The notes beneath the pieces are model-generated. The model was not told the DNA's origin and ran no database searches. It saw nothing but the letters and a program-made list of their open reading frames with translations. A program made the position numbers and the translations under genes. This document shows, piece after piece, positions 4,799-18,896 of a stretch of DNA of 32,018 nt; positions within the stretch are counted from its first letter, which is position 1, and the number at the start of each line of letters is the position of its first letter. Source of the stretch: Ignavibacteriales bacterium (GTDB lineage: Bacteria > Bacteroidota > Ignavibacteria > UBA10030); the NCBI GenBank assembly GCA_016193365.1, contig JACPSI010000019.1, positions 1-32,018 on the forward strand. The letters are read 5' to 3'.

Positions 4799-7279
4799 CT
4801 ACTTGACGGGAATGACGAGACGATCTCCCGGATGTATTCCGCTCGAAGTATCGTTTCGTTCTTCAATCTCTCGCACACTCACGCCGTACTTTTTTGAGAT
4901 CTTCCATAGATTCTCGCCTGGCCGAACTTCGTGGTAAAGAACGTTGTCCGAGATACTTTTCTCCACTGGAATTCGTAACTCCTGGCCAACAGCCAACACG
5001 GTTGTTCCAAGATTATTATGAGATTTTAGGCTCGCGACGTTCACGCCGTACTTTCGCGAGATCTCGTACAGTGTCTCTCCCCTCTTGACACGATGAAGGA
5101 TTTCCGCAACCTTCGACCCCTGAAGGTCGGCTGGCAAACGGGGACCAATCATCGGCTCCGCGGGCGAAGAGATGATTTTGACGCGTTCCTCAGGCGTCGA
5201 GTACACCGAGAGCGTTTGCCCCGGAAGGATTTTGCTGTTGCGCAGGTTATTCCATGCCTTCAGCTCCATAACGCTGACACCATACTTTTGCGAAATTCTC
5301 TCCAGGCTCTCTCCCCGTTGAACAACGTGCTCCTTCCAACCGTTCCCTTCGTTCCTCAACGTCATGCGTGCCTCGTTTCCCGCAGTATTCTGAGGTACTT
5401 CGCGATTCTCAAGTGCCTGTTTTTCGGAAAACGTGAAGCGATCGATTTTCTCTAATGACGCGTATTTTGATGGCTCCACCCACACGCTAATCGCTTGCCC
5501 GCCGTAGATATGGTTGCCGTAAGGGATGTTATTCCAATTCCGAATTGCACTTGCCCTGACGCCGTACCATTCAGCAATGTGTCCTATGGTGTCGCCCCTT
5601 TTGACATGATAGACAAGTTTTTGCTTTCCTGCCGGGGCTTTGATCGGTGCAGATGGCGCGTACGTTCTCGTCCTGTCTCTTCTTTCCACATATGCCCGGA
5701 CTTTGCCGAAGTCGACACGTTTTCCATCCGTATCATATGCAAACGGTTGTTTCGATCGTGTGCTCGTGAATTCGGACGGTACAGGAATTGCAAGGTTCTT
5801 TCCTATGGAGAGCCGTCGCTCGCTCGGGAGATTATTCACCTCTTTCAGCAGAGAAGCCGTAAGACCGTAGCGACGCGCGATTGTTGAAAGCGTTTCGCCT
5901 TTTTTTACAATGTGGATGGCCCAATCCCGTTTCTGATGATCGGGAATTTTGGCAAAGTTCTCTGCAAACGTGTCCTTGGAACCCAAAGGAACCCGCAATC
6001 GATAGCCGGTCACCCCCGGTGGTGTACACCATTGTAAGAGCTCCGGGTTCAACTCCCGCAACGTCTCAACATCTGTGGACGCGCACTCGGCAAGAAGTTT
6101 CAGGTCCACACAATCACTTATCTCTACGACATCCCACATAAGCGAATCAGCCACCTCGATGTCCGTAAACCCATATTTGTGCGGCTCCATTGCCATGCGC
6201 GTTACCGCGATATACTGAGGAATATAATTCCTCGTCTGGCGTGGGAGAAATTTTCGCATTTCCCAAAAGTCTGTCGTTCCGCTTCTGCGGATTGCCCGAA
6301 AGATTCTTCCCGCGCCGGCATTGTAGGCCCCCAACACAAGATACCAGTCGCCAAATTCTGAATGCAAGTCCTTAAGATGTCGCGCCGCCGCCTGTGTGGA
6401 TTTTTCAAAATCGCGTCTTTCGTCGTACCACCAGTTGCTCCTCATGCCGTACAACGTCCCCGTCCCTTTCATAAACTGCCACAACCCAACCGCGCGCACC
6501 CAGGATCGGGCATCCGTGCGAAGGCCGCTCTCCGGCATCGAGACATACACCAGCTCCTCGGGCACTCCCTCCTCCCGGAAAATTCGCTTCATCATCGGAA
6601 AATACTTTCCTGAAAGGTAGAGCCACCGTTCCATGTGGCTGCGACCCTTCCCCAGGAAAAACGAGATGTTGCGTTCAACGTATTCGTTAACAGGGAGTGC
6701 GATTGTCGTGCCTTTGATCTCGTCCCTGGGAATCTTCACTTCACCGGTATCGATCAACTCTACGTCCTGGCTCAGTTTTTCCCGAATGGCAAAAATGGAC
6801 GCGTACGGACCTAACCGGTCGATAACGGTAATGTGCTTCTCATAATCTTCGACAACGCTCTTAAACAAATCCGTGAAGTCTTTGTTCGATTCGATGTCCG
6901 GGAAATCACTTAATTCATTGAGAATCTGTATTGCTTCCTCAAATTCAACCTCCGAGAGGCTTGTGTCTTTTGCCTCCTGGGCAGTCAGTGCCGAGACATA
7001 ATGTTGTCTTGCCACTTCGAGCTTTTGTGCTATTGTCTCTGATTCGTCCAGAAGAGAATCGGATGTTACAAATTCTGGTTTTTGCTCGCCTTTGGAATGC
7101 TCAAGCGAGTCTTCCAACACGACAGGTTGTGCCGGAGCAACGCTAGACGGTCGCGCGGATGTGCCTTCTTTGACGGAAACAGCAGAAGTTTTTGAAACGG
7201 GTTCTGAGGGACGGGTGGATTGTTGAGATGAACAACTAAGAAAGAACGGGCAGAAAACTATCACAAGAACTCGAACCAT
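4799..7279 (-). CDS. mltD: Membrane-bound lytic murein transglycosylase (MltD-like) lipoprotein with five LysM repeats
   Basis: The product has 826 residues. A lipobox FFLSC places the lipidated Cys at residue 16. Residues about 236-365 form an SLT family 1 domain: [14 protein letters not shown] contains the catalytic Glu250, followed by AVGLWQFM and [10 protein letters not shown], then [13 protein letters not shown]. Five LysM modules follow, starting near residues 455, 556, 650, 728 and 782 (e.g. [15 protein letters not shown]). A degenerate sixth may lie at 385-430. The enzyme should cleave the MurNAc-GlcNAc bond of peptidoglycan from an outer-membrane anchor, the LysMs gripping the glycan. 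Five LysMs exceed the two or three usual in E. coli MltD. Upstream are a GGAGG ribosome site close to the ATG and a good sigma70-like promoter, so it is probably monocistronic. Confidence 0.93.
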
Positions 7280-7384: not shown

Positions 7385-8932
7385 TCACAAAGGAATATTC
7401 CCGTGTTTCTTCCGGGGGTTTGTATCCACTTTGTTTTCCAGGAACTTCAAGGCACGAATCAGTTTGGACCGCGTTTCATGCGGCATGATGACTTCATCGA
7501 TGTAGCCGCGTTCCGCGGCAATATAGGGGTTCGCAAATTTTTGCCGGTATTCGTCGACTTTTTCCTCCAACGCTTTCTCTTTGTCAGTCGATTTCTCAAT
7601 CTCTTTGCGGAAAATAATCTCCACGGCTCCCTTCGGACCCATAACAGCAATTTCAGCGGTGGGCCAGGCATAGTTGACATCGCCCCGGATATGCTTCGAG
7701 TTCATGACATCATATGCTCCTCCGTAGGCTTTTCTTGTAATGACCGTAATCCGCGGAACTGTTGCCTCACAGAATGCATACAACAACTTTGCGCCATGTT
7801 TGATGATCCCTCGCCATTCCTGATCACTTCCCGGCAGGAATCCCGGGACATCTTCAAGGACGACAAGCGGGATATTGAATGCATCGCAGAAACGGACAAA
7901 CCTCGCTCCTTTCAGTGAAGATTCAATGTCAAGCACGCCCGCCAAAACAGATGGTTGATTTGCAATGATGCCCACGGATTCTCCTCCGAGCCGCGCAAAA
8001 CCGACTATGAGATTCGGTGCGTAGAGTTCATGGACTTCAAGGAAATCACCTCGGTCACAAACCTTTCGGATAATGTCCTTCATGTCGTACGGTTTATTCG
8101 GATTCTCCGGCACGAGTGCGTCGAGCTCCATGTCTTTTCTGTTGGCGTCGTCGTCCGTGGCAATCGCAGGGACATCGTCCACGTTGTTTTGAGGAATAAA
8201 GCTCAGGATCCTTTTGATTCCGTCGAGGCACTCGACCTCATTCTCCATCGCAAAGTGGGCCACGCCGCTCTTCGTGGCATGTGTGAGAGCGCCGCCGAGA
8301 TCCTCAAAACTGATATCCTCGTGCGTGACAGTTTTAACGACATTCGGGCCTGTCACAAACATATGACTTGTGTGTTTGACCATAAAAACGAAATCGGTGA
8401 TCGCCGGCGAGTAAACTGCCCCACCTGCACATGGACCCAAGACCGCCGAAATCTGAGGGACAACGCCCGAGGCGAGCGTGTTGCGAAGAAATATTTCCGC
8501 ATACCCGCCCAGACTCACAACTCCTTCCTGAATCCTTGCTCCTCCGGAATCATTAAGCCCGATAATCGGCACGCCGAGTTTTAATGCCAGATCCATGACA
8601 CGGCAAATCTTTTCCGCATGTGCCTCGGACAAAGACCCGCCGAAGACGGTAAAATCCTGGCTAAAAATCACCACCGGCCTGCCATGAATCGACCCGCGAC
8701 CCGTAATAACGCCGTCACCGAGGTACTTCTGTTTATCGAGCCCAAAATCCGCCGTACGATGCTGGACGAACATGCCGATCTCTTCGAAGCTCCCGTCGTC
8801 CAGTAATAAATCGATCCTCTCACGTGCAGTGAGCTTTCCTTTTTTGTGTTGATCCTCTATTCGTTTTTCGCCGCCACCGAGTAGCGCTTTCCTTCGAAGT
8901 TCGTCTAGCACCTGGATTTTTGTCTTCTTCAT
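7385..8932 (-). CDS. pccB: Acyl-CoA (propionyl-CoA) carboxylase, carboxyltransferase subunit
   Basis: The product has 515 residues, the normal length for the family. Two crotonase-fold halves are visible. The first has [13 protein letters not shown] (about 127-139) and [17 protein letters not shown] (165-181), which builds the oxyanion hole for acyl-CoA. The second has [20 protein letters not shown] (361-380), [17 protein letters not shown] and the typical end RKKHGNIPL. Asp408 in YGGAYDV matches the residue linked in actinobacterial PccB to a preference for propionyl-CoA over acetyl-CoA. It would move carboxyl from carboxybiotin to propionyl-CoA, giving methylmalonyl-CoA, or run the reverse decarboxylase reaction. 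Neither biotin carboxylase nor a biotin carrier protein is encoded in the window, so partners must lie elsewhere. No Shine-Dalgarno is seen before the ATG; a good promoter is. Confidence 0.93.
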
Positions 8933-8983
8933 GGGATTTTCAATGCGGATTGGTCTGATTCGCGGTGATTGAGAACTGGAGAA

Positions 8984-9012
8984 AATATAGGAAACCGAAG
9001 CTGTTTTCGCAA
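8984..9012 (-). promoter_or_regulatory. Candidate sigma70-type promoter of pccB
   Basis: Minus strand: TTGCGA (9007-9012), 17-nt spacer, TATATT (8984-8989). It is among the best-scoring promoters seen in the window. The predicted leader is about 45 nt before the ATG at 8932. Confidence 0.48.
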
Positions 9013-9029
9013 GGAACAGCGATCGGAAG

Positions 9030-9047
9030 GAGCTGTCTTCACAGCTC
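9030..9047 (-). terminator. Hairpin downstream of the RND efflux gene
   Basis: A perfect 7-bp stem (GAGCTGT/ACAGCTC) closes a 4-nt loop, 64 nt past the end of the efflux operon. On the minus strand it is followed by CTTCCGATC, which is not a real T-run. It is a possible weak or factor-dependent terminator, or an RNA-stabilising hairpin. Confidence 0.32.
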
Positions 9048-9111
9048 GGTAGTTTGCGCTAATGAGAACTTACGCCCGGGTCAACAAGGAAAAATCAATA
9101 CATCGGGAGGA

Positions 9112-12100
9112 CTACTTCGCCATTGCCTCAACATTTTCAGCAGTTGTCGCCAGGATCGGTCTCTTGGAGACACTCTTCTTGCCTGCAAGCTTGAGGGCGA
9201 GAAATTCCTTTGCCGAGTGAAAGATGAGATAGATATTAGGAATGATAAGCAATGAGATGACGGTTGCCACAATGAGCCCGCCAATGGTCGATACAGCAAG
9301 CGGTTGAAGTACTTCAGATCCCTCTCCGATGCCCAAAGCGAGAGGCGACATTCCTACGGTTGTGGTCAACGTGGTCATAAGTATGGGACGTAAACGGACA
9401 GGGCCTGCCGCACGCACAGCATCCTCCATGGACATCCCCTTTTCCTTTCTCATGATTTCAATAAACTCCACGAGGACAATAGAGTTATTGACCACTATTC
9501 CCGCAAGCAATATGACACCGAGCATGACGGTGGCGCCCACAGGTATGTTTGTCACAAACAAAGAGAGAACCACTCCAATGAGCGCAAAAGGAATTGTCGT
9601 GAGAATTACGAATGGGTTGAGCAATGATTCGTACTGGACAGCCATCACGACGTAGACAAGGAAAACAGCGAGTAAGATGATCGTCAGAAGGACGCGGTTG
9701 TTTTCTTTTACCGTTTCCTCTTGTCCCCCATACAGCAGTGAAAATCCTTCCGGCAGTTTCATTTGGTCAAGAGTGGCATGAACATCTTCCATGACTTCGC
9801 CAAGTGTCCTTGAACTTCCGGCTATATCACCGCTAACCTCCACGATCCTATTCTGATTCTCCCTCGTGATTGTCACCGGTCCTAAACCCTCTTTCACTTT
9901 CGCCACGCTGCGTAACGTTGTTGGCGGACCCACCGTCGGGTATATAATAAGGTCCTCGACATCCCGCAGGTTCGCAATCTCGGACCTTGCCAACAAGACA
10001 CGGATATCATACTCTCGGTCGCCCTCCGTGTATTTCGAGGCAATCGTGCCATCGATTGCAGTCCGTACTGTCTCTCCTACATCCCGAATGGAAATCCCCA
10101 GTTCCGCGGCACGCTCGCGGTCAACCTGGATACGTAACTCCGGTTTGGCCTCATCCAACGATTTGTTCAAATTCGAAAGCCCGTCAACGCCCCGCAGACG
10201 AGCCATGACTTCATTCGCCAGCACGATGAGCGTGTTTAAATCCTGCCCCTGCACTTTCACTCCAACGTCGTTGTTGCTGCTCGATGTTCGAATCCCCCTA
10301 ATTTGCGACTTCGAGACAAGAATGCGGGCTTCAGGGATCTGCGCCTCATTTATTTTATTCCTGACCTGGGCGATCCATTCATTACTGGAAATGTTTCGTT
10401 CGTTCAATGGAACAAGCTGGACATCGATTCCGCCTCTATTGGCAAACTCCGCCGTTCCCCTTCCAAAGATAAATCCCCCCACCGTCGAGAACACCGATGC
10501 TTTTGCCGGCATTTCTTTAACGATCTCTTTGAGGCGGTCCGCCACTTTGTTTGTCTCCGATACTCCTGTACTGGGTGGCATCTCGATTCTTATACTGATT
10601 CTTCCGTCATCCATGTACGGAAGAAACTCTGACCCCAATCTTTGAAACAGAAGTATTGAGCCGATAAAAATAAGAATGGAGCTGCCTACGACGAGTATCT
10701 TGTGAGAAATCGTCCATGCGAGCGTATTGCTGTACCATCCCGTCAGCTTTCTGATGAATTCTTCAACCGCCGAAAACATTTTCGTCGTTTTTCTTTTGTG
10801 TGTTTCTTCATATCTGAACAATAAGGCTGAAAGCATCGGGACAAGAGTGATAGCCACCAGCAAAGACCCGATGATTGCAAACGAGATCGTGAGGATCAAT
10901 TCATTGAAAAACAGGGCAGCCAGCCCCACCACCAGCAAAAATGGCAGGACGGATGCGAGATTCGTCGTTGTCGATGCAATGACTGCTGAAATGACTTCAT
11001 TGCTTCCGTAATGAGCGGCTTCCACAGGATCCGGATGCTGCTTCTGATGGCGCGAAATATTTTCCAGCATGACAATCGAATTATCAACCAACATTCCTAT
11101 GCCAAGCGCAAGACCGCCAAGGGATATAATGTTCAGGGTGAGATTCCCCATGCCCATCATCACAAAAGTTGCCAGAATTGCTATAGGAATAGACGTAGCG
11201 ATAATGAATGTCCGACGCCAACTCCCCAGGAAAAGGCCGACAAGAATCATTGCAAGCAGTCCGCCGATGAGCGCGGCGTCCGAAACGCTCGAAAGAGAAT
11301 TCTTTATGTAATATGACTGGTCGTTCACAACCTTGAACTCAATCCCCGCCGGTATAAGGCCGCTCTTCTCCAGATAAGCCATTTTCTTTCTTATTCCATC
11401 GTTGACCTCGACGGTGTTCGCGTTCGGCTGTTTCTGAATGCTCACTTTGACGCTTGGAATATCGTTCAGATGGACAAAGATCCTCTGTTCGCGATGCGAA
11501 TCCTCGACCCGAGCAACGTCCTTCAGCTTGATACGCTGCATGCTTCCTTGAGATCGGACAGGAACAGGAACTTCACGAATGGCTTCAACGCTTGAAAATT
11601 TTCCCTCTGTGCGGCTGAGATATTCCCGTCGGCCGGTAATCACCCGCCCCCCCGTCTGGTCGAGGTTGGCATCGCGGATGGCTCGCAGAATTTCTGTCAC
11701 GGACAACCCGTACCCCTGAATTCTTTTCTGGTCGATGATGACCTGAATTTCACGCTCGAGACCACCGGCAACATCAACAGAAGCGATACCGGCAACTGTC
11801 ATGAAATAAATGGACAAATACTCCTGGCACCAACGTCGAAGCGATACGAGGTCCGTCGTCGAAGAAGACACGGCAATCTCAAAGATGGGAATCTGCGATG
11901 GGTCCGCTTTCCAGATTGTCGGCGGGTCCACTTCACGCGGCAACCCTGCTCTCGCCTGGTCGAGCTTTGTGCTCGCGTCGCGCAGAGCAACATCGATGTC
12001 CTTCCCGTAATCGAAGCTTAAGGTGACATTTGAGCGGCCCTCGGATGTCTGAGACTCGACACGCGTCACGTCTTCTGTTGTGGCAAGTCGTGATTCTAGC

Positions 12101-12339
12101 AAGCGCGTCACGGTTTCTTCCATGACAAGAGGGTCGACGCCGCGGTTGGCCACGTTCACTCGAATTTGCGGATAGATTATCTTGGGAAGGAGGTCGACCT
12201 GGAGATTTGAAAGAAAGTACGATCCAAGGACAATCACCACGGACACAAGCATCGTCGTGCCAATGGGGTGTTTGATCGCCCAATCCGACAACGATTTCTT
12301 TTGTGAAAGGCGGTACTCGTGTGCGTCTGTAGAGCTCAT
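9112..12339 (-). CDS. RND (AcrB/HAE1-type) efflux transporter permease
   Basis: The product has 1075 residues, normal for RND pumps. It shows the two-fold repeat: TM1 about 28-45 (TTMLVSVVIVLGSYFL), a periplasmic porter region, TM2-6 about 355-510, a second large loop, and TM8-12 at the end. The TM4 relay segment reads GMLVDNSIVMLEN with a single Asp419 followed by Asn, where AcrB has two Asp. The TM10 segment GIVVNNSIVLVEF has Asn where AcrB has the relay Lys. This pattern occurs in a large branch of HAE1 pumps, so activity is expected, but coupling differs from AcrB. The start ATG overlaps the stop of the upstream adaptor by 4 nt (ATGA), implying translational coupling. No TolC-like outer-membrane channel is encoded nearby. 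The substrate cannot be read from sequence. Confidence 0.93.
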   Translation of the reverse strand: MSSTDAHEYRLSQKKSLSDWAIKHPIGTTMLVSVVIVLGSYFLSNLQVDLLPKIIYPQIRVNVANRGVDPLVMEETVTRLLESRLATTEDVTRVESQTSEGRSNVTLSFDYGKDIDVALRDASTKLDQARAGLPREVDPPTIWKADPSQIPIFEIAVSSSTTDLVSLRRWCQEYLSIYFMTVAGIASVDVAGGLEREIQVIIDQKRIQGYGLSVTEILRAIRDANLDQTGGRVITGRREYLSRTEGKFSSVEAIREVPVPVRSQGSMQRIKLKDVARVEDSHREQRIFVHLNDIPSVKVSIQKQPNANTVEVNDGIRKKMAYLEKSGLIPAGIEFKVVNDQSYYIKNSLSSVSDAALIGGLLAMILVGLFLGSWRRTFIIATSIPIAILATFVMMGMGNLTLNIISLGGLALGIGMLVDNSIVMLENISRHQKQHPDPVEAAHYGSNEVISAVIASTTTNLASVLPFLLVVGLAALFFNELILTISFAIIGSLLVAITLVPMLSALLFRYEETHKRKTTKMFSAVEEFIRKLTGWYSNTLAWTISHKILVVGSSILIFIGSILLFQRLGSEFLPYMDDGRISIRIEMPPSTGVSETNKVADRLKEIVKEMPAKASVFSTVGGFIFGRGTAEFANRGGIDVQLVPLNERNISSNEWIAQVRNKINEAQIPEARILVSKSQIRGIRTSSSNNDVGVKVQGQDLNTLIVLANEVMARLRGVDGLSNLNKSLDEAKPELRIQVDRERAAELGISIRDVGETVRTAIDGTIASKYTEGDREYDIRVLLARSEIANLRDVEDLIIYPTVGPPTTLRSVAKVKEGLGPVTITRENQNRIVEVSGDIAGSSRTLGEVMEDVHATLDQMKLPEGFSLLYGGQEETVKENNRVLLTIILLAVFLVYVVMAVQYESLLNPFVILTTIPFALIGVVLSLFVTNIPVGATVMLGVILLAGIVVNNSIVLVEFIEIMRKEKGMSMEDAVRAAGPVRLRPILMTTLTTTVGMSPLALGIGEGSEVLQPLAVSTIGGLIVATVISLLIIPNIYLIFHSAKEFLALKLAGKKSVSKRPILATTAENVEAMAK

Positions 12340-13376
12340 GACCTCTCCTTTGTTATCCGCACAGCCATTTTATCGTTGAGGGCACTCTGACCTACAACGA
12401 CAACTTTGTCGCCTTCTTTTACTCCTCGCAATACTTCGGCCCGTGTTCCGTCCTTGATGCCGAGTGTTAACTCACGCTTGAAAACCAGGGAGTCTTCAAC
12501 GACAAATGCGGTCGTTTGTCCTGTCGACGATGTTACGATTGCATCGTTGCTCAAGACCACGGCATCCGGCTTTGAGGATGTCGTAAGCTCAGCCCTTGCA
12601 AACAGCCCCGGAAACAGTCTTTCGTCTCTTTCGGTAAGTTCAACTTCGACCTTTACGAGGCGCGTGACAGGATCGCTCGCCGGGAATATGCGTCGGACCT
12701 TTCCTTTAAAAGCGCATTGCGGATATGCATCGACCGTAATCTTGACGGCATCTCCCAGCTTGATTTTCGGGATTTCAAGTTCTGACACGGTGACTTCGAT
12801 GACGAGCGTTGTCGGGTCGCTGACGGTCAGGAGGACCGTCCGGGGAACCGCAATGTCTCCTTCCCGAACCCCCCGGAATGTAATGACACCTGAGATAGGA
12901 GCCGTAATGGTCGTGTAGTCGAGGAGAGCTTTCTGATATTTGAATCGAGCCTTGGCCACATTGTAGCGGGTTTTGGACTGGTCATAATCTTGCTGAGATA
13001 TCAGTTTTGAATTGAACAGGGTCCCTGCTCTTTCGAACACCGACCGGGCATCTTCCATATTCGCCTCAGCCTCAGCTGCCTGTGCAGCCAGTATGGAATC
13101 ATCAAGCTTCACAAGGACCTCGCCTTTTTTCACCTTATCCCCTTCTTCAACATTGAGCTTAACGATTTTTCCCTCTGTCTGGGCGATGATTTTCACCTCG
13201 CTTTTCGATGTTATCGTCCCCGTCGCACTGGTGGTGGCAACAATAGGAGCTTTTTTTGCTCTTTCAACCTCCACGTACACAACTGGCTTGCCTTGTTGCG
13301 CGTCCGGCGTGGGAGCATTACCGCACCCCGACAAAAAAAGAACCAAAAGGAGGAGAACCGGCAGGCTTCTATTCAT
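12336..13376 (-). CDS. RND-associated periplasmic adaptor (membrane fusion) lipoprotein
   Basis: The product has 346 residues from the ATG at 13376. Earlier in-frame starts would lie inside the preceding gene and hide the signal. The lipobox VLFLSGC puts the lipidated Cys at residue 18. The AcrA/HlyD layout follows: a lipoyl half (GTITSKSEVKIIAQTEGKIV ... VEEGDKVKKGEVLVKLDD), a short coiled-coil hairpin rich in Ala/Glu, the second lipoyl half (TTITAPISGVITFRGVREGD), a beta-barrel (VKITVDAYPQCAFKGKVRRI) and a membrane-proximal domain ending VVVVGQSALNDKMAVRI. It overlaps the ABC permease gene upstream by 8 nt and the RND gene downstream by 4 nt, so it is almost surely the adaptor for that RND pump. 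It links the inner-membrane pump to an outer-membrane channel not encoded here. Confidence 0.92.
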   Translation of the reverse strand: MNRSLPVLLLLVLFLSGCGNAPTPDAQQGKPVVYVEVERAKKAPIVATTSATGTITSKSEVKIIAQTEGKIVKLNVEEGDKVKKGEVLVKLDDSILAAQAAEAEANMEDARSVFERAGTLFNSKLISQQDYDQSKTRYNVAKARFKYQKALLDYTTITAPISGVITFRGVREGDIAVPRTVLLTVSDPTTLVIEVTVSELEIPKIKLGDAVKITVDAYPQCAFKGKVRRIFPASDPVTRLVKVEVELTERDERLFPGLFARAELTTSSKPDAVVLSNDAIVTSSTGQTTAFVVEDSLVFKRELTLGIKDGTRAEVLRGVKEGDKVVVVGQSALNDKMAVRITKERS

Positions 13377-14586
13377 ACCGTAAAGCGTCGATGACATTAG
13401 ATTCGGCAGCCTTCCAGGCAGGATAAATCCCGAAAAAAATTCCAACAAAGGAAGAAAAAATGAAGCTGACAAAGACAGAATTCAACGAAATGATTGGGCT
13501 GAGATTTCCATAGCTTGTGATAAGATACGAAGCTACAACACCAAGAACAATGCCGAGGCAGCCTCCGGAGATACTCAGGACGACAGATTCAATCAGGAAT
13601 TGCGACATGATGTCCTGTTTCCTTGCGCCAATCGCTTTCCGGATCCCAATTTCTTTTGTTCTTTCCGTTACGGAGACAATCATGATATTCATAATGCCAA
13701 TCCCTCCGACAACGAGAGATACGGCTGCGATTCCTGCGAGGAGAAACGTAAATGTCTGCTGTGTTTCAGTCAAGGTAGTGATAATATCGGCCTGGTTCCT
13801 GATACTAAAATCGTTGTCCTGGTCCTCACGCAGTTTGTGCGACTTTCTTAAGACTCGTTCAATATCGTAAAACGCTTCGTCGTTGCGCGTCTGGGCTACG
13901 ACCTTTGCCGTTATCTGCGACAGGTAGTCAACGCCAAAGATTCTCCGTTGCGCTGTGCTCAGCGGTACAATGATTTGGTCGTCCGGATTCTGGAAACCGC
14001 TCTGGCCCTTCGTTTCAAGCAAGCCGATGATCTCAAATGATTGCCCCGAAATGCGGATCGTCTTGCCAATCGGGTCCACTCCTTGAAAAATATTCTCGGC
14101 AACAGTGGAGCCAATGACCGCGACCTTCGCAGCAGCCCTCTCTTCCTGATTGTTAAAGTAACGCCCGTCGACAACGTAGAAGTTCCTTACCCACTCGTAA
14201 TCCGGAATCGTTCCGATGATCCGCGTACTCCAGTTGCGGTTTTCATATTTGACCTGTGCGTTTCTGTTGAACTCCGGAACCACAGCCTCAATGGCATTGG
14301 ATGATCGCTTGATCGCATGCGCATCTTCGTTCCTTAATCGTACACTCGTACCGAATTGAATAACAAAAGTCCCGCCGCCACGTTGCGCCCCCGGGCTGAT
14401 GAACAGTAAATTTGAACCCAGAGCCTGGATCCGCTCTGTAACGGCTTTTTGCGAACCTTCACCGATGGCAATCATGGTAATCACCGCCGCGACACCGATG
14501 ATGATGCCCAGCATCGTCAAGAGCGCGCGTAACTTGTTGGCAACGAGCGCGGCGAGCGCGGTAAGAAAACTCTCCTTGACGTTCAT
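13369..14586 (-). CDS. MacB/FtsX-type ABC transporter permease lacking an ATPase domain
   Basis: The product has 405 residues from the ATG at 14586, chosen for GAGGAA 7 nt upstream and the family-typical start MNVKESFLTALAALVANKLR. TM1 is about 21-42 (ALLTMLGIIIGVAAVITMIA). A MacB periplasmic core domain spans about 45-265. Three C-terminal helices (about 281-304, 331-357, 371-389) form the FtsX domain, with VTERTKEIGIRKAIGARKQDI between the first two, and the end WKAAESNVIDALRYE. Full-length MacB carries an N-terminal ABC ATPase; here it is absent and no Walker A/ABC signature gene occurs anywhere in the window. The ATPase must be supplied from elsewhere, or the permease acts without one. 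It lies between two adaptor genes, 13 nt after the first and overlapping the second. Confidence 0.92.
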   Translation of the reverse strand: MNVKESFLTALAALVANKLRALLTMLGIIIGVAAVITMIAIGEGSQKAVTERIQALGSNLLFISPGAQRGGGTFVIQFGTSVRLRNEDAHAIKRSSNAIEAVVPEFNRNAQVKYENRNWSTRIIGTIPDYEWVRNFYVVDGRYFNNQEERAAAKVAVIGSTVAENIFQGVDPIGKTIRISGQSFEIIGLLETKGQSGFQNPDDQIIVPLSTAQRRIFGVDYLSQITAKVVAQTRNDEAFYDIERVLRKSHKLREDQDNDFSIRNQADIITTLTETQQTFTFLLAGIAAVSLVVGGIGIMNIMIVSVTERTKEIGIRKAIGARKQDIMSQFLIESVVLSISGGCLGIVLGVVASYLITSYGNLSPIISLNSVFVSFIFSSFVGIFFGIYPAWKAAESNVIDALRYE

Positions 14587-14599
14587 TGATCGTTCCTCG

Positions 14600-16180
14600 T
14601 TACCTCGTCCCTGGAACTCGTGTACCACCGCCAAGGCCGCCGACGCCGCTCATGTTCCTCATTCTTTCATTGAACTGTTCGCTTGCTAACTTTGCGCGTG
14701 AAATTGTCGTTATCTGGATTTCTTCCCCCTCTTTCAGGCCTTCGAGCACTTCGGAATTGTCAAAATTACTCGGTCCAACCTTGACCAATCTGGGTTTGAA
14801 CACCGCGCCTTCTTTCGCTACAACCACGCGCCAACGAACGTCGGTTTCGTTGCTTACCTGTGACTGTCGACGTACACGTGGGCTCGAGACATCCGATGCG
14901 CCGCCCGTTGCGCCATCTCCTCGAAACATCGTCGTGCCGCCCATCTGACCTTGACTCGCTCCCAACTGCCCGCCCTGCCCCCCGTCGCGTTGAAATCGGC
15001 CTCCCATCTGAGACCGCATCTTCTCGCGTTCTTCGGGTGACATCTTTTCAAACCGTTGCCGCATTTCGGCAAACATTTTTTGGCGCTCCTCGGGAGAAGC
15101 GTTCTGCATACGCTCACGGAACTTCGCGGGGTCAAATTGCTCCGAACTTGTCCCCTTTTTTCCTTCAACAGTCTTCTTCTCTTTTGAAGGTTCCTGTTTT
15201 TCTTCAGGGACTGACAGGTTTGCCGATGCCAACAACGCTTTTCCTTGTTCGCTTCGTGGGTCTTTCAGCGCTTCATTTGGAACGAGCACAACGTTTTTCC
15301 GGTTAAACACTTCGACATCAACTGAGGCGCTCATGCCGGCTTTCAGTTTCCCACCGAGATTCCTCACAAGAATGATCACATTAAACGTCGTCACGTTTTG
15401 AAGAGTCTTTCCCAGCGGCGAAATGCGGATGACTTCACCTCGAAAAGTGTCTTCCGGATACGCATCGGCCACAATCTTCGCGCTCTGTCCAACTTTTACT
15501 TTTCCGATGTCGACCTCGTCGACATTTGTTTCCACATGTACCATATCCATATCCGCAATCGTTGCAAGCAACGTTCCGCCGCCAACGTTCGAGACAGCCG
15601 AAGCTATGATTTGTCCGAGTTCAACACTCCTTGATAAAATCACGCCGGTAATCGGAGCCAGGATCCGCGTGTCTCGCAAGCGGTCGTCGGCGGACGACAG
15701 TGATGCTTTTGCTTTGACATGTTGGGACTGTGCACGTACGTAATCCACGCCGGATTGATCGCGCTCCTGCTCGGAAATGAGCTTTTTCTCGAAAAGTTCT
15801 TTTGCACGCTTGTGGTTATTCTCCGCCTGCGCCATGGCAGCTTCTGCAAGCGCGAGGTCGGCTTTTGCCTGGTCGTAATCGTTTCGTGTCTGGGTTTGGT
15901 CAATCCCTGTGAGCAGGTCTCCCTTGCTCACCGCCTGGCCTTCCTCAAACGTCAGTTCAACGATCTGCCCGCTCGCTTTCGATCTGATCTCAACTTTATT
16001 GATCGGCTGAACTACTCCGTTTGCGGAAACAATGAGGTTGAGGTCGCCCCTTTCAGCTTTTATGACGCGTTGCACCTGGCCCGCGGGAGTTTGTTCCTTT
16101 GTTTTGTTATTTCCCAAAAAGTAGTATCCTACTCCCCCGACAACAATGACAACAACAGCCAGAATTACATATTTTTTCAT
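14600..16180 (-). CDS. MacA-like periplasmic adaptor with a long charged/Gly-rich insertion
   Basis: The product has 526 residues from the ATG at 16180, with GGAGGA 7 nt upstream and an immediate membrane anchor (VILAVVVIVVGGVGYYF). HlyD/MacA architecture: lipoyl halves (EIRSKASGQIVELTFEEGQ; TRILAPITGVILSRSVELGQ), a coiled-coil of about 60 residues, a beta-barrel (AKIVADAYPEDTFRGEVIRI) and a membrane-proximal domain (about 446-495). Residues about 306-445 are an insertion: first Lys/Glu-rich, then two copies of SPEER(Q/E)KM at about 362 and 381, then a Gln/Gly/Ser-rich linker. This makes it about 130 residues longer than ordinary MacA proteins. It should be the partner of the ABC permease encoded 13 nt downstream. 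The insert resembles the charged helices of the small protein encoded just upstream. Confidence 0.9.
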   Translation of the reverse strand: MKKYVILAVVVIVVGGVGYYFLGNNKTKEQTPAGQVQRVIKAERGDLNLIVSANGVVQPINKVEIRSKASGQIVELTFEEGQAVSKGDLLTGIDQTQTRNDYDQAKADLALAEAAMAQAENNHKRAKELFEKKLISEQERDQSGVDYVRAQSQHVKAKASLSSADDRLRDTRILAPITGVILSRSVELGQIIASAVSNVGGGTLLATIADMDMVHVETNVDEVDIGKVKVGQSAKIVADAYPEDTFRGEVIRISPLGKTLQNVTTFNVIILVRNLGGKLKAGMSASVDVEVFNRKNVVLVPNEALKDPRSEQGKALLASANLSVPEEKQEPSKEKKTVEGKKGTSSEQFDPAKFRERMQNASPEERQKMFAEMRQRFEKMSPEEREKMRSQMGGRFQRDGGQGGQLGASQGQMGGTTMFRGDGATGGASDVSSPRVRRQSQVSNETDVRWRVVVAKEGAVFKPRLVKVGPSNFDNSEVLEGLKEGEEIQITTISRAKLASEQFNERMRNMSGVGGLGGGTRVPGTR

Positions 16181-16232
16181 TCTACGATCCTCCGTTAATC
16201 TTTCTAAAGACGAAAGCGAAACGCTTTTGTTC

Positions 16233-16616
16233 CTAATCCCTGTTGCGCCGTCCGCGTTCCCTGCCTTCACGCTCATCCATTTCTCTAATGAATTCATCGT
16301 ACAACTTATTCTGCTCAGGAAACAACACCTTTCTCGTATCCCAGCGCAATGTGTCGCGCTGAGCTTTGAATCGCTCAGAATATCGCTTTCTCATCTCTCC
16401 AAACTTGCTTCGATGGAATTCCAGAAGGGAGTCGACTGCTGCGCGTTGTCGAGCGTCCAGTTGCAGTCGTTCCGAGAACTCTTTGCGGATATCCTCCCGT
16501 GAGGGCCGTGGCTTGTTGGTGCGTCCATAGTACGTTTTGCCCACGACCAAGCCTCCGACAGCTCCCAGAAGAAAGCTGAAGAGAATAAATAGCAAAGTTT
16601 TTGAGCGGGGTTGCAT
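16233..16616 (-). CDS. Small membrane-anchored Spy/CpxP-like (periplasmic sensor-type) protein
   Basis: The product has 127 residues. One N-terminal transmembrane helix or uncleaved signal anchor (LLFILFSFLLGAVGGLVVG, about 8-26) is followed by about 95 highly charged helical residues. The pattern RLQLDARQRAAVDSLLEFHR ... YSERFKAQRDTLRWDTRKVL ... LYDEFIREMDERE resembles the LTxxQ-type helices of Spy/CpxP and the 'periplasmic heavy metal sensor' families, which bind misfolded proteins or tune stress sensors. No exact LTPEQ motif is present, so the match is loose. It lies 12 nt after the anti-sigma factor gene, with AAGGA upstream, and before the adaptor gene. This suggests a role in sensing or damping the envelope signal that controls this operon. 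Confidence 0.72.
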   Translation of the reverse strand: MQPRSKTLLFILFSFLLGAVGGLVVGKTYYGRTNKPRPSREDIRKEFSERLQLDARQRAAVDSLLEFHRSKFGEMRKRYSERFKAQRDTLRWDTRKVLFPEQNKLYDEFIREMDEREGRERGRRNRD

Positions 16617-16628
16617 ATCATTCCATCC

Positions 16629-17087
16629 TTACTGTTTGGACACCGCTGCCATCAAAACATCGTCCTTAGAAATTTCGTCTCCGTTAAAGAGTATCTGCGA
16701 TTCTGCTGAATCTGACGCCTCGCCTCGCAGATAGCGCTCGACTGAAATCTCCTCCTCCTGGAAATTGAAACTCGTCAAACCTACGAGCAACAGCACAACA
16801 ATCGAAAGCGCCAGGACGGTCCTCCGCGCAATGAACTCGGCGGGAGTCCAATTCCCGGATTCGTCAATTTGCAGCCTGATTGACCTCAACGCATTCGCCG
16901 AAAACGACCCTGATAATTCAACATCTGCTCTCTCCTTGATCCCCGCGCGGATATTTCTGAACTGGCTCACGATGCCCACACATTCTGAGCACGTTGAGAG
17001 ATGCGCTTCCACTGCAGAGAGCACAGGCCCGGCGAGCTCTCCGTCAATGTATTCCGATAACCGATTCTGAATATCCTGATGTTTCAT
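16629..17087 (-). CDS. Anti-sigma factor with zinc-finger (zf-HC2) domain and one membrane helix
   Basis: The product has 152 residues. The N-terminal zinc-finger anti-sigma signature is intact: AHLSTCSECVG gives His29, Cys33 and Cys36, after the usual RLSEYIDGELAG helix. A single membrane segment lies at about 89-107 (RTVLALSIVVLLLVGLTSF), putting the zf-HC2 domain in the cytoplasm and about 45 acidic residues in the periplasm. Its ATG overlaps the sigma factor stop by 4 nt (ATGA), the standard arrangement for a cognate pair. It should bind and hold the ECF sigma factor until an envelope signal releases it. A periplasmic tail this short suggests sensing through a partner, perhaps the Spy-like protein encoded next. 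Confidence 0.9.
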   Translation of the reverse strand: MKHQDIQNRLSEYIDGELAGPVLSAVEAHLSTCSECVGIVSQFRNIRAGIKERADVELSGSFSANALRSIRLQIDESGNWTPAEFIARRTVLALSIVVLLLVGLTSFNFQEEEISVERYLRGEASDSAESQILFNGDEISKDDVLMAAVSKQ

Positions 17088-17668
17088 GTGCGTTCCTGAA
17101 AATATTCCTTCAATAAGGTTCTCATTTCTTCCCGGGCGCGAAAAATCCGGGATTTCACTGCCTGGACGGAAATTCTCAATGTCTGTGCGATTTCTTCGTA
17201 GGTCAGATCTTCATACTCGCGTAGAATCAGAACGCTCCTGTGTGGAGGTCGGAGTTTCTGTAATGCGCTCGCCACAATGTCTTTTTTTTCGCTCTCCAAC
17301 AAAGCGTCCGCCGGCGTAGGGATTTTTTTTGACGGCTTCTCTCCTTCACTCATCCGCTCTTCGGAGAAAAACTCAAGCGAGAATGTCCGCTTAATCCTTC
17401 GACGGCGGATCTCGTCAATGCAGAGGTTAACAGTAATTCGGTATAACCACGAATAGAATGACGCGTCAAATTCAAACCTTAAAAGCGAACGAAACGCACG
17501 GATAAATACTTCCTGTGTCAGATCTTCGACGGCATGCCTGTTTCCCAGCGTTAGGTAGATTATGTTTGCGACCTGACGTTGATATCGCTTGATGAGTTCT
17601 TCAAATGCCTTCTCATCGCCGGACTGAAAGGCGCGAACAAGCTGAAAGTCATCTGGGGATTGTTTCAC
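17084..17668 (-). CDS. ECF-type RNA polymerase sigma factor (RpoE-like)
   Basis: The product has 194 residues, starting at a GTG (17668). Region 2 covers about 25-92: FEELIKRYQRQVANIIYLTL, then AVEDLTQEVFIRAFRSL and FYSWLYRITVNLCIDEIRRR. Region 4 covers about 128-184: LRPPHRSVLILREYEDLTYE, then IAQTLRISVQAVKSRIFRAR. There is no region 3, as expected for group IV (ECF) factors. It heads a seven-gene unit with its anti-sigma factor, a small periplasmic protein and two export machines, so the operon is probably both its target and its source (autoregulation). A candidate ECF-type promoter lies just upstream. Upstream mnmA is insulated by a strong terminator. Confidence 0.94.
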   Translation of the reverse strand: MKQSPDDFQLVRAFQSGDEKAFEELIKRYQRQVANIIYLTLGNRHAVEDLTQEVFIRAFRSLLRFEFDASFYSWLYRITVNLCIDEIRRRRIKRTFSLEFFSEERMSEGEKPSKKIPTPADALLESEKKDIVASALQKLRPPHRSVLILREYEDLTYEEIAQTLRISVQAVKSRIFRAREEMRTLLKEYFQERT

Positions 17669-17685
17669 GTCTTTCTAGCGTAAAA

Positions 17686-17711
17686 AACGAACAAGAGAGA
17701 GAAAAGTTTCC
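17686..17711 (-). promoter_or_regulatory. Candidate ECF-sigma autoregulatory promoter
   Basis: Minus strand: GGAAAC (17706-17711), 16-nt spacer, CGTT (17686-17689), the general form of ECF promoters (a GGAAC-like -35 and a CGT-type -10). It lies between the mnmA terminator and the sigma factor GTG start at 17668. It implies positive autoregulation, but the motif is short and unverified. Confidence 0.36.
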
Positions 17712-17735
17712 GTTACATCATCGATATCACACAAG

Positions 17736-17768
17736 AAAGCCCAATTCTCATGAACAGAATTGGGCTTT
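17736..17768 (-). terminator. Intrinsic terminator of mnmA
   Basis: A perfect 13-bp stem (AAAGCCCAATTCT with AGAATTGGGCTTT) closes a 7-nt loop 21 nt past the mnmA stop, and its 3' arm ends TTT then CTTGT on the minus strand. The stem is nearly symmetrical, but no plus-strand gene exists here, so it serves mnmA. Confidence 0.72.
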
Positions 17769-17789
17769 GGCTGAAGTTACGAAAGGCTG

Positions 17790-18896
17790 CTACTCCGCCA
17801 AGTCGTCAATAATACCTCCTCCCAGGAGATCATCTCCATCGTAGAAAACAACGGATTGCCCTGGAGTAATGGCTCTTTTGGGAGCATCAAAAACGACGCG
17901 GATTGTCCCCTCATGGGAATAAATCGTTGCCGGTTCGGGCTTGTCCTTGTATCTCACCATCACCGAAGCGCGCAATTCCTCAGGAGCTTTTGCTATGCTT
18001 ACCCAGTTCACCTGGCGACTCACCAACCTGGAATTGTAAAGATCCCCGTCTTCTCCAATCTGAAGTGTATTCGAAGCGGCGTCGACTCCCGTGACGTACA
18101 TTTTTCGGCCAAACGCTCCGATGCCCTTGCGCTGTCCGATTGTGTAGAACGGGTATCCTTGATGCTTTCCCACAATTTTGCCGTCCCAAACGATATCACC
18201 GCCCTGTATCTCCACGCCGAGACGATCCACGCGTTCCTTCAAGAACCGGGTGTAATCGTTGTCAGCCACAAAACAAATCTCAAAACTTTCTTGCTTGTCG
18301 GCGGTACGAAGGCCCAGGCGTTGAGCGATACCCCTGACATCCGGCTTCGTCATTTCGCCTAGAGGAAACAAGGTCTTGCTCAACGCTTCCTGTGAAAGCG
18401 CCCAGAGTGCGTATGATTGATCTTTTTGTGCAAACAATGCGCGCGAGATGACATAACGGTTTTTGTCTCCGTCATACCGGACGCGGGCATAGTGCCCCGT
18501 CGCAATGCAGTCGGCTCCAAGAGCCTGAGCTTTCTTTAGAAGTTCTCCCCATTTGATATCCCGGTTACACATCACACAGGGGTTCGGAGTTCGTCCCCGC
18601 AGGTATTCCTCAACAAAGTAGTCGACAACGCGATTCCCAAACTCGTCGCGGAAGTCCGTGACATAATGGGGAATTCCCAACTTGGCGGCAACAAGTCTCG
18701 CATCGTAGACTGCACCCAACCCGCAGCAGCTCGACTCATTGTCGATATTGCCCCCGACCTCATCGAAGTCGTAGGTCTTCATCGTCACCCCGATCACGTG
18801 GTAACCCTGCTCAAGCAACAACGCCGCGGCAACCGATGAATCCACGCCGCCGCTCATTGCAACCAGGACGGTTCCCTTTTTTCCGTTGGTATGCAT
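17790..18896 (-). CDS. mnmA: tRNA-specific 2-thiouridylase MnmA
   Basis: The product has 368 residues, the usual length. The PP-loop SGGVDSS (15-21) binds ATP. PNPCVMCN carries catalytic Cys107 and FEICFV carries Cys208, the pair that accepts and transfers persulfide sulfur. Other signatures are SSCCGLGAVYDARLVA, IATGHYARV, KDQSYALWALSQ and GQRKGIG. MnmA makes 2-thiouridine at wobble position 34 of tRNAs for Lys, Glu and Gln in the cytoplasm, using a cysteine desulfurase sulfur source not encoded here. It is a single gene with its own terminator. A TATCTT -10-like hexamer ends only 6 nt before the ATG, so the message could be leaderless. Confidence 0.96.
   Translation of the reverse strand: MHTNGKKGTVLVAMSGGVDSSVAAALLLEQGYHVIGVTMKTYDFDEVGGNIDNESSCCGLGAVYDARLVAAKLGIPHYVTDFRDEFGNRVVDYFVEEYLRGRTPNPCVMCNRDIKWGELLKKAQALGADCIATGHYARVRYDGDKNRYVISRALFAQKDQSYALWALSQEALSKTLFPLGEMTKPDVRGIAQRLGLRTADKQESFEICFVADNDYTRFLKERVDRLGVEIQGGDIVWDGKIVGKHQGYPFYTIGQRKGIGAFGRKMYVTGVDAASNTLQIGEDGDLYNSRLVSRQVNWVSIAKAPEELRASVMVRYKDKPEPATIYSHEGTIRVVFDAPKRAITPGQSVVFYDGDDLLGGGIIDDLAE

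Follow-up and report, generated by a model that had tools for sequence, protein, structure and literature searches.

An ECF sigma factor operon with an exchangeable export cassette and a MacB-type permease lacking its own ATPase in Ignavibacteriales

A seven-gene operon and its promoter

We examined the window (the whole 32,018-nucleotide stretch of DNA analyzed here) using ORF and domain searches, which confirm the seven tightly packed, overlapping genes reported in the initial annotation and place them on the minus strand. The first gene encodes an ECF sigma factor (17084-17668, GTG start; Sigma70_r2 E 2.9e-18, r4_2 E 3.7e-16), followed by a zinc-type membrane-bound anti-sigma factor (16629-17087; zf-HC2 E 2.1e-10) and a small, membrane-anchored periplasmic protein that resembles Spy and CnrX (16233-16616; LTxxQ-like motifs, weak domain matches). 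Further downstream are a MacA-like periplasmic adaptor (14600-16180; RND_mfp 192.6 bits, MacA model E 1.3e-33) and a MacB-like permease without an ATP-binding domain (13369-14586). The last two genes form an RND module, which domain searches identify as a periplasmic adaptor and an ACR_tran-type pump. The adaptor is a lipoprotein (12336-13376, ATG at 13376; lipobox LSGC, MNRSLPVLLLLVLFLSGC, RND_mfp 235 bits), and the pump (9112-12339; ACR_tran E 5.7e-265) belongs, according to tree and identities, to subfamily A of the three that occupy this slot. We place the start of MacA at the ATG at 16180, since a longer ORF from 16297 would overlap the gene for the Spy-like protein. Overlaps measure 4 nt (17084-17087), 8 nt (13369-13376) and 4 nt (12336-12339), and the remaining gaps measure 12, 52 and 13 nt. 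As the initial annotation noted, the operon contains no TolC gene.

The initial annotation considered whether terminators might split this unit. Sites resembling terminators show no enrichment relative to shuffled sequences (15 vs 11.7 +/- 3.8), and thus nothing in the sequence clearly divides it. Sigma-70 promoter-like sites are over-represented on both strands (21 vs 7.8), for a consensus that is not known to apply in this lineage, and no Rfam elements are present in 8500-18200. A literature search of partial coverage, which makes it weak evidence, returned no description of the operon. The C-terminal part of the MacA-like adaptor (within 14600-16180) contains a low-complexity insertion, first of SPEER/EKM repeats and then glycine-rich, reminiscent of the helices of Spy-like proteins. 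Elsewhere in the window, a large lytic transglycosylase (SLT) with five LysM repeats is encoded at 4799-7279 on the minus strand.

An ECF-type promoter, GAAACTTT-N13-CGTTT, lies 16 nt upstream of the sigma start codon (17685-17710, minus strand), and the window contains no other exact copy of it. The element GAAACTTT-N13-CGTYT is found upstream of sigma at the same place and with the same spacing in 15/15 species aligned, with weaker agreement at the -35 in one of the loci (L101), while in genomes with the RND pair only, it keeps GAAAC and CGTTT, often without TTT. We also examined 17 further sigma genes in this genome; the regions upstream of them differ from the element by at least three mismatches. 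The initial view that both transporter modules lie under one ECF pair is borne out: they follow one sigma/anti-sigma/Spy-like head with one conserved ECF-type promoter. A possible ECF-like site, GGAAC-N16-CGTC, is also located in the gap between the Spy-like and MacA-like genes (16233-16209, minus strand); it occurs in two congeners only, with a spacer of 17 in the second, and was not seen in the other genomes.

The sigma factor, anti-sigma factor and Spy-like protein form a fixed head in family f1 (32 genomes), wherever the contig permits the check. The sigma orthologue is clear of its paralogues in every genome of the family except G022, which is 55% complete, and G031, where the contig begins within the locus; in nearly every member it scores 167-406 bits, with paralogues reaching at most 138, and none of the order's other families has it at that score level. 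In one genome (G002; L242 12547-15798), a second ECF sigma factor with a 414-aa partner is found directly upstream of the mnmA-sigma locus. The anti-sigma factor has an invariant H29-C33-C36 (Hx3Cx2C), the zinc signature that defines class I anti-sigma factors (PMC7406223), together with one hydrophobic segment and a short tail in which ISK-D is conserved. The Spy-like orthologues (n=27) share a hydrophobic N-terminal anchor and two LTxxQ-like motifs with invariant L53-Q57 and L98-Q102, and show weak matches to Metal_resist (17/27) and LTXXQ (15/27). Matches of the window's protein to known structures are also weak (Spy E 0.06, CnrX 3zg1 E 0.44). CnrX binds metal through histidine ligands, whereas no conserved histidine column exists among the 27 Spy-like orthologues. 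The predicted model is all-helical, with a pLDDT of 84.7 and a pTM of only 0.50, and a fold search with it gives no significant match, probably owing to the simplicity of a helical hairpin. Judging from CnrYX (PMC4803752), the tail of the anti-sigma factor and the Spy-like protein likely make the contact that transmits the signal.

A MacB-type permease without an ATPase

The permease consists of MacB_PCD (E 2.4e-51) and FtsX (E 1.3e-21) with no ABC_tran match, and aligns to residues 271-663 of MacB 5lil_A, the portion that follows its ATPase domain. Searching 60 relatives as well as GTDB contigs (record titles Ignavibacteria, Ignavibacteriales or Bacteroidetes), we found orthologues 74-94% identical to the window's permease in another 18 f1 genomes, giving 19/32 in total, and outside f1 only once, in a genome of another family (G054, 68%). 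Across the 19 permease-bearing f1 genomes, neither the operon nor the flanks examined contain an ATPase gene. The initial annotation was right in calling this protein an ABC permease of the MacB type; it overlooked that both the ATP-binding domain and an operon ATPase are missing, so the MacA-permease pair is not a self-sufficient MacAB pair. The likeness to MacAB-TolC (PMC5985334) extends to the MacA-like adaptor, the MacB periplasmic core, the FtsX-type membrane domain and the conserved coupling helix. Unlike in that system, the ATP-binding domain is neither fused to the permease nor encoded nearby, and the operon is without TolC. A comparison of strong ABC_tran matches with MacB-type ATPases, carried out across the genome, did not reveal a stand-alone orphan gene of the MacB type.

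The permease is intact in 19 species, at about 405 aa and with no internal stops. It is also the most conserved of six operon proteins compared with those of a congener (93.6% identity vs 60-87%, the RND pump not included), and with a dN of 0.041 and a saturated dS, this pattern indicates that it is under strong purifying selection. In MacB, the major coupling helix lies between TM2 and TM3 (PMC5985334). The predicted equivalent, a segment of 23 residues, is near-invariant in ATPase-less copies just as it is in ATPase-paired ones. From this helix and the conservation of the permease, the simplest inference is that the protein docks an ATPase encoded elsewhere.

An alternative explanation is that the permease needs no ATPase at all and is, for instance, a scaffold on which MacA docks, a valve that is passive or coupled to force, or a sensor belonging to the sigma system. 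The lack of a neighboring ATPase gene in all 19 genomes fits this explanation, as does the occurrence of related ATPase-less MacA-permease pairs at other loci in other families of the order. A named family of orphan MacB-type proteins also exists: ADOP (TIGR03434), which comprises MacB/FtsX-type permeases named for their lack of neighboring ATPases. The permease is a sub-threshold relative of this family (141 bits, cut-off 622) and differs from it in being single, whereas an ADOP protein is a duplicated permease roughly 800 aa long. However, a near-invariant predicted docking helix is unexpected if no ATPase docks, and ATPase-carrying clades fall inside the same permease tree as the ATPase-less copies. 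We therefore regard this explanation as unlikely, and its strict form, in which a true ATPase-free MacB-type protein beside MacA, retained family-wide, works without ATP hydrolysis, for example in a mechanical or sensory role within the sigma system, as a little less likely again.

In family f5, two loci without an ATPase gene (L109, L110) and one with an ATPase gene between MacA and permease (L116) have equivalent neighborhoods, which suggests gain or loss of that gene. The window's genome also contains a second MacA-permease-permease set (G000:C158; L198 6349-9974) with no ATPase gene on its contig, whose permeases are only 27-30% identical to the one in the operon.

An exchangeable cassette behind the sigma factor

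The operon order, with a permease at 74-94% identity, recurs in many genera of the family, indicating that the arrangement is beyond chance. The initial annotation asked whether this order is kept in relatives; it is conserved in the family, as modules, and the cassette behind the head varies across the 32 genomes. MacA, permease and RND together follow the head in 14/32, in combination with RND subfamily A (G000, G001, G003, G006, G012, G018), B (G010, G011, G015, G017, G023, G027) or C (G016 and, from a partial gene, G014). The MacA-permease pair is found without RND in four genomes (G004, G019, G029, G031) and runs to the contig end in another (G021). In seven, the RND module directly follows the Spy-like gene, either as a pair of subfamily C (G005, G008, G013, G020, G024, G028) or as an adaptor up to the contig end (G026), and three contain neither transporter module (G002, G009, G025). 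These counts leave out G007, G022 and G030, owing to contig ends or poor assembly, and some loci (those of G018, G019 and G023) are split over two contigs. Based on tree and identities, the RND pumps fall into three groups that are 58-97% identical within and 25-35% between, and all three alternate in one slot with the same MacA-permease pair.

These patterns bear on the proposal, made in the initial annotation, of a dedicated composite export machine in which the MacA-permease and RND pairs have evolved to cooperate through shared adaptors or substrate hand-over. Its genes are adjacent and overlapping behind one upstream promoter, and both modules keep the same order in those 14 genomes. Yet each module also occurs alone behind the same head, and RND pumps as divergent as the three subfamilies replace one another beside an unchanged MacA-permease pair. 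Thus, the head is fixed, the cassette is exchangeable, and neither transporter needs the other for its retention. The two machines are separable, which argues against an obligate composite, and we consider the cooperative proposal quite improbable. This family of uncultured bacteria can instead serve as a natural experiment in how a stress switch acquires efflux pumps, with the same head followed by an RND pump (from one of three unrelated subfamilies), a motor-less permease, both or neither. Finally, the locus could be an ordinary multidrug or envelope efflux operon, controlled by an ECF factor, in which the MacB homologue is decaying. This would be in keeping with component families that are all common and with fragmented MAG assemblies, but is very improbable for a permease that is intact in 19 species, more conserved than its neighbors and under strong purifying selection.

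A TolC operon with a matching promoter

The only MacB-like ATPase in the window's genome is encoded in an unlinked TolC-MacA-ATPase-permease-permease operon (G000:C77). When we scanned the 32 genomes for the promoter element, there were few exact sites per genome, and the recurring target besides the sigma genes is the start of this operon. Starting from TolC orthologues, we found the element ahead of TolC with no more than one mismatch in every f1 genome tested (19/19), a level that shuffles reach in 0/200 cases each. In the window's genome and its congener, the site reads GCAACTTT, with its one mismatch in the -35 (GCAAC).

Taken with the missing ATPase, these sites are consistent with an envelope-stress regulon resembling CnrYXH, in which an exchangeable export cassette is controlled by the sigma factor and the MacA-permease pair borrows its ATPase and TolC in trans. 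We hold this interpretation with moderate confidence. The zinc-type anti-sigma factor and the Spy/CnrX-like protein with its inner-membrane anchor would keep the ECF sigma factor inactive until an envelope signal frees it. The freed sigma factor would then transcribe its own operon from the element, producing in the window's genome the MacA-like adaptor and MacB-like permease as well as the RND adaptor and pump. The TolC operon, having the same element, would be switched on together with the sigma operon and would supply the motor and the outer-membrane channel for the permease. Precedent for such sharing comes from MceG, one ATPase that serves the unlinked Mce1 and Mce4 transporters (PMC9947336). 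Transporter operons without an ATPase that rely on a distant one are our working model here as well, although Mce proteins are unrelated import systems and the sharing proposed here is one that we infer.

Identity between the ATPase-less permease and those encoded in the TolC operon is only about 34%, so the ATPase of that operon need not be compatible, and a LolD-type ATPase could act instead. The TolC operon keeps its promoter element in genomes with the RND pair alone or with no cassette, indicating that it does not exist for the ATPase-less permease only. Two operons joined by matching promoter elements make a testable case that the ATPase from one locus can power a MacB-type permease from another. 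If this holds, annotating a MacA-permease pair as a complete pump would be wrong unless its motor has been located.

Among the closest known counterparts is CnrYXH-CnrCBAT of Cupriavidus metallidurans, where the sigma factor transcribes its own unit and the efflux genes (PMC4803752). Both systems place an ECF sigma factor, a membrane anti-sigma factor and a small membrane-anchored protein, of the Spy superfamily in Cupriavidus and putatively so here, beside an RND adaptor and pump (PMC4803752). However, the anti-sigma factor described here is of the zinc type (class I, Hx3Cx2C), whereas CnrY belongs to class II, and the Spy-like protein is without conserved histidines. The operon in the window also differs in that sigma comes first, a MacA-permease pair is added, three alternative RND pumps are in use across the family, and a gene for an outer-membrane channel is lacking.

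Outside f1, the element precedes the TolC operon with 0-1 mismatch in 6/11 genomes, where the sigma orthologue is missing, which makes it probable that the TolC-operon promoter is recognized by at least one additional ECF factor. We considered the next most similar ECF factor (G000:C145 type) as its driver; this candidate is disfavored because its own promoter is spaced differently, with 17-18 nt from AAC to CGT vs 16 nt.
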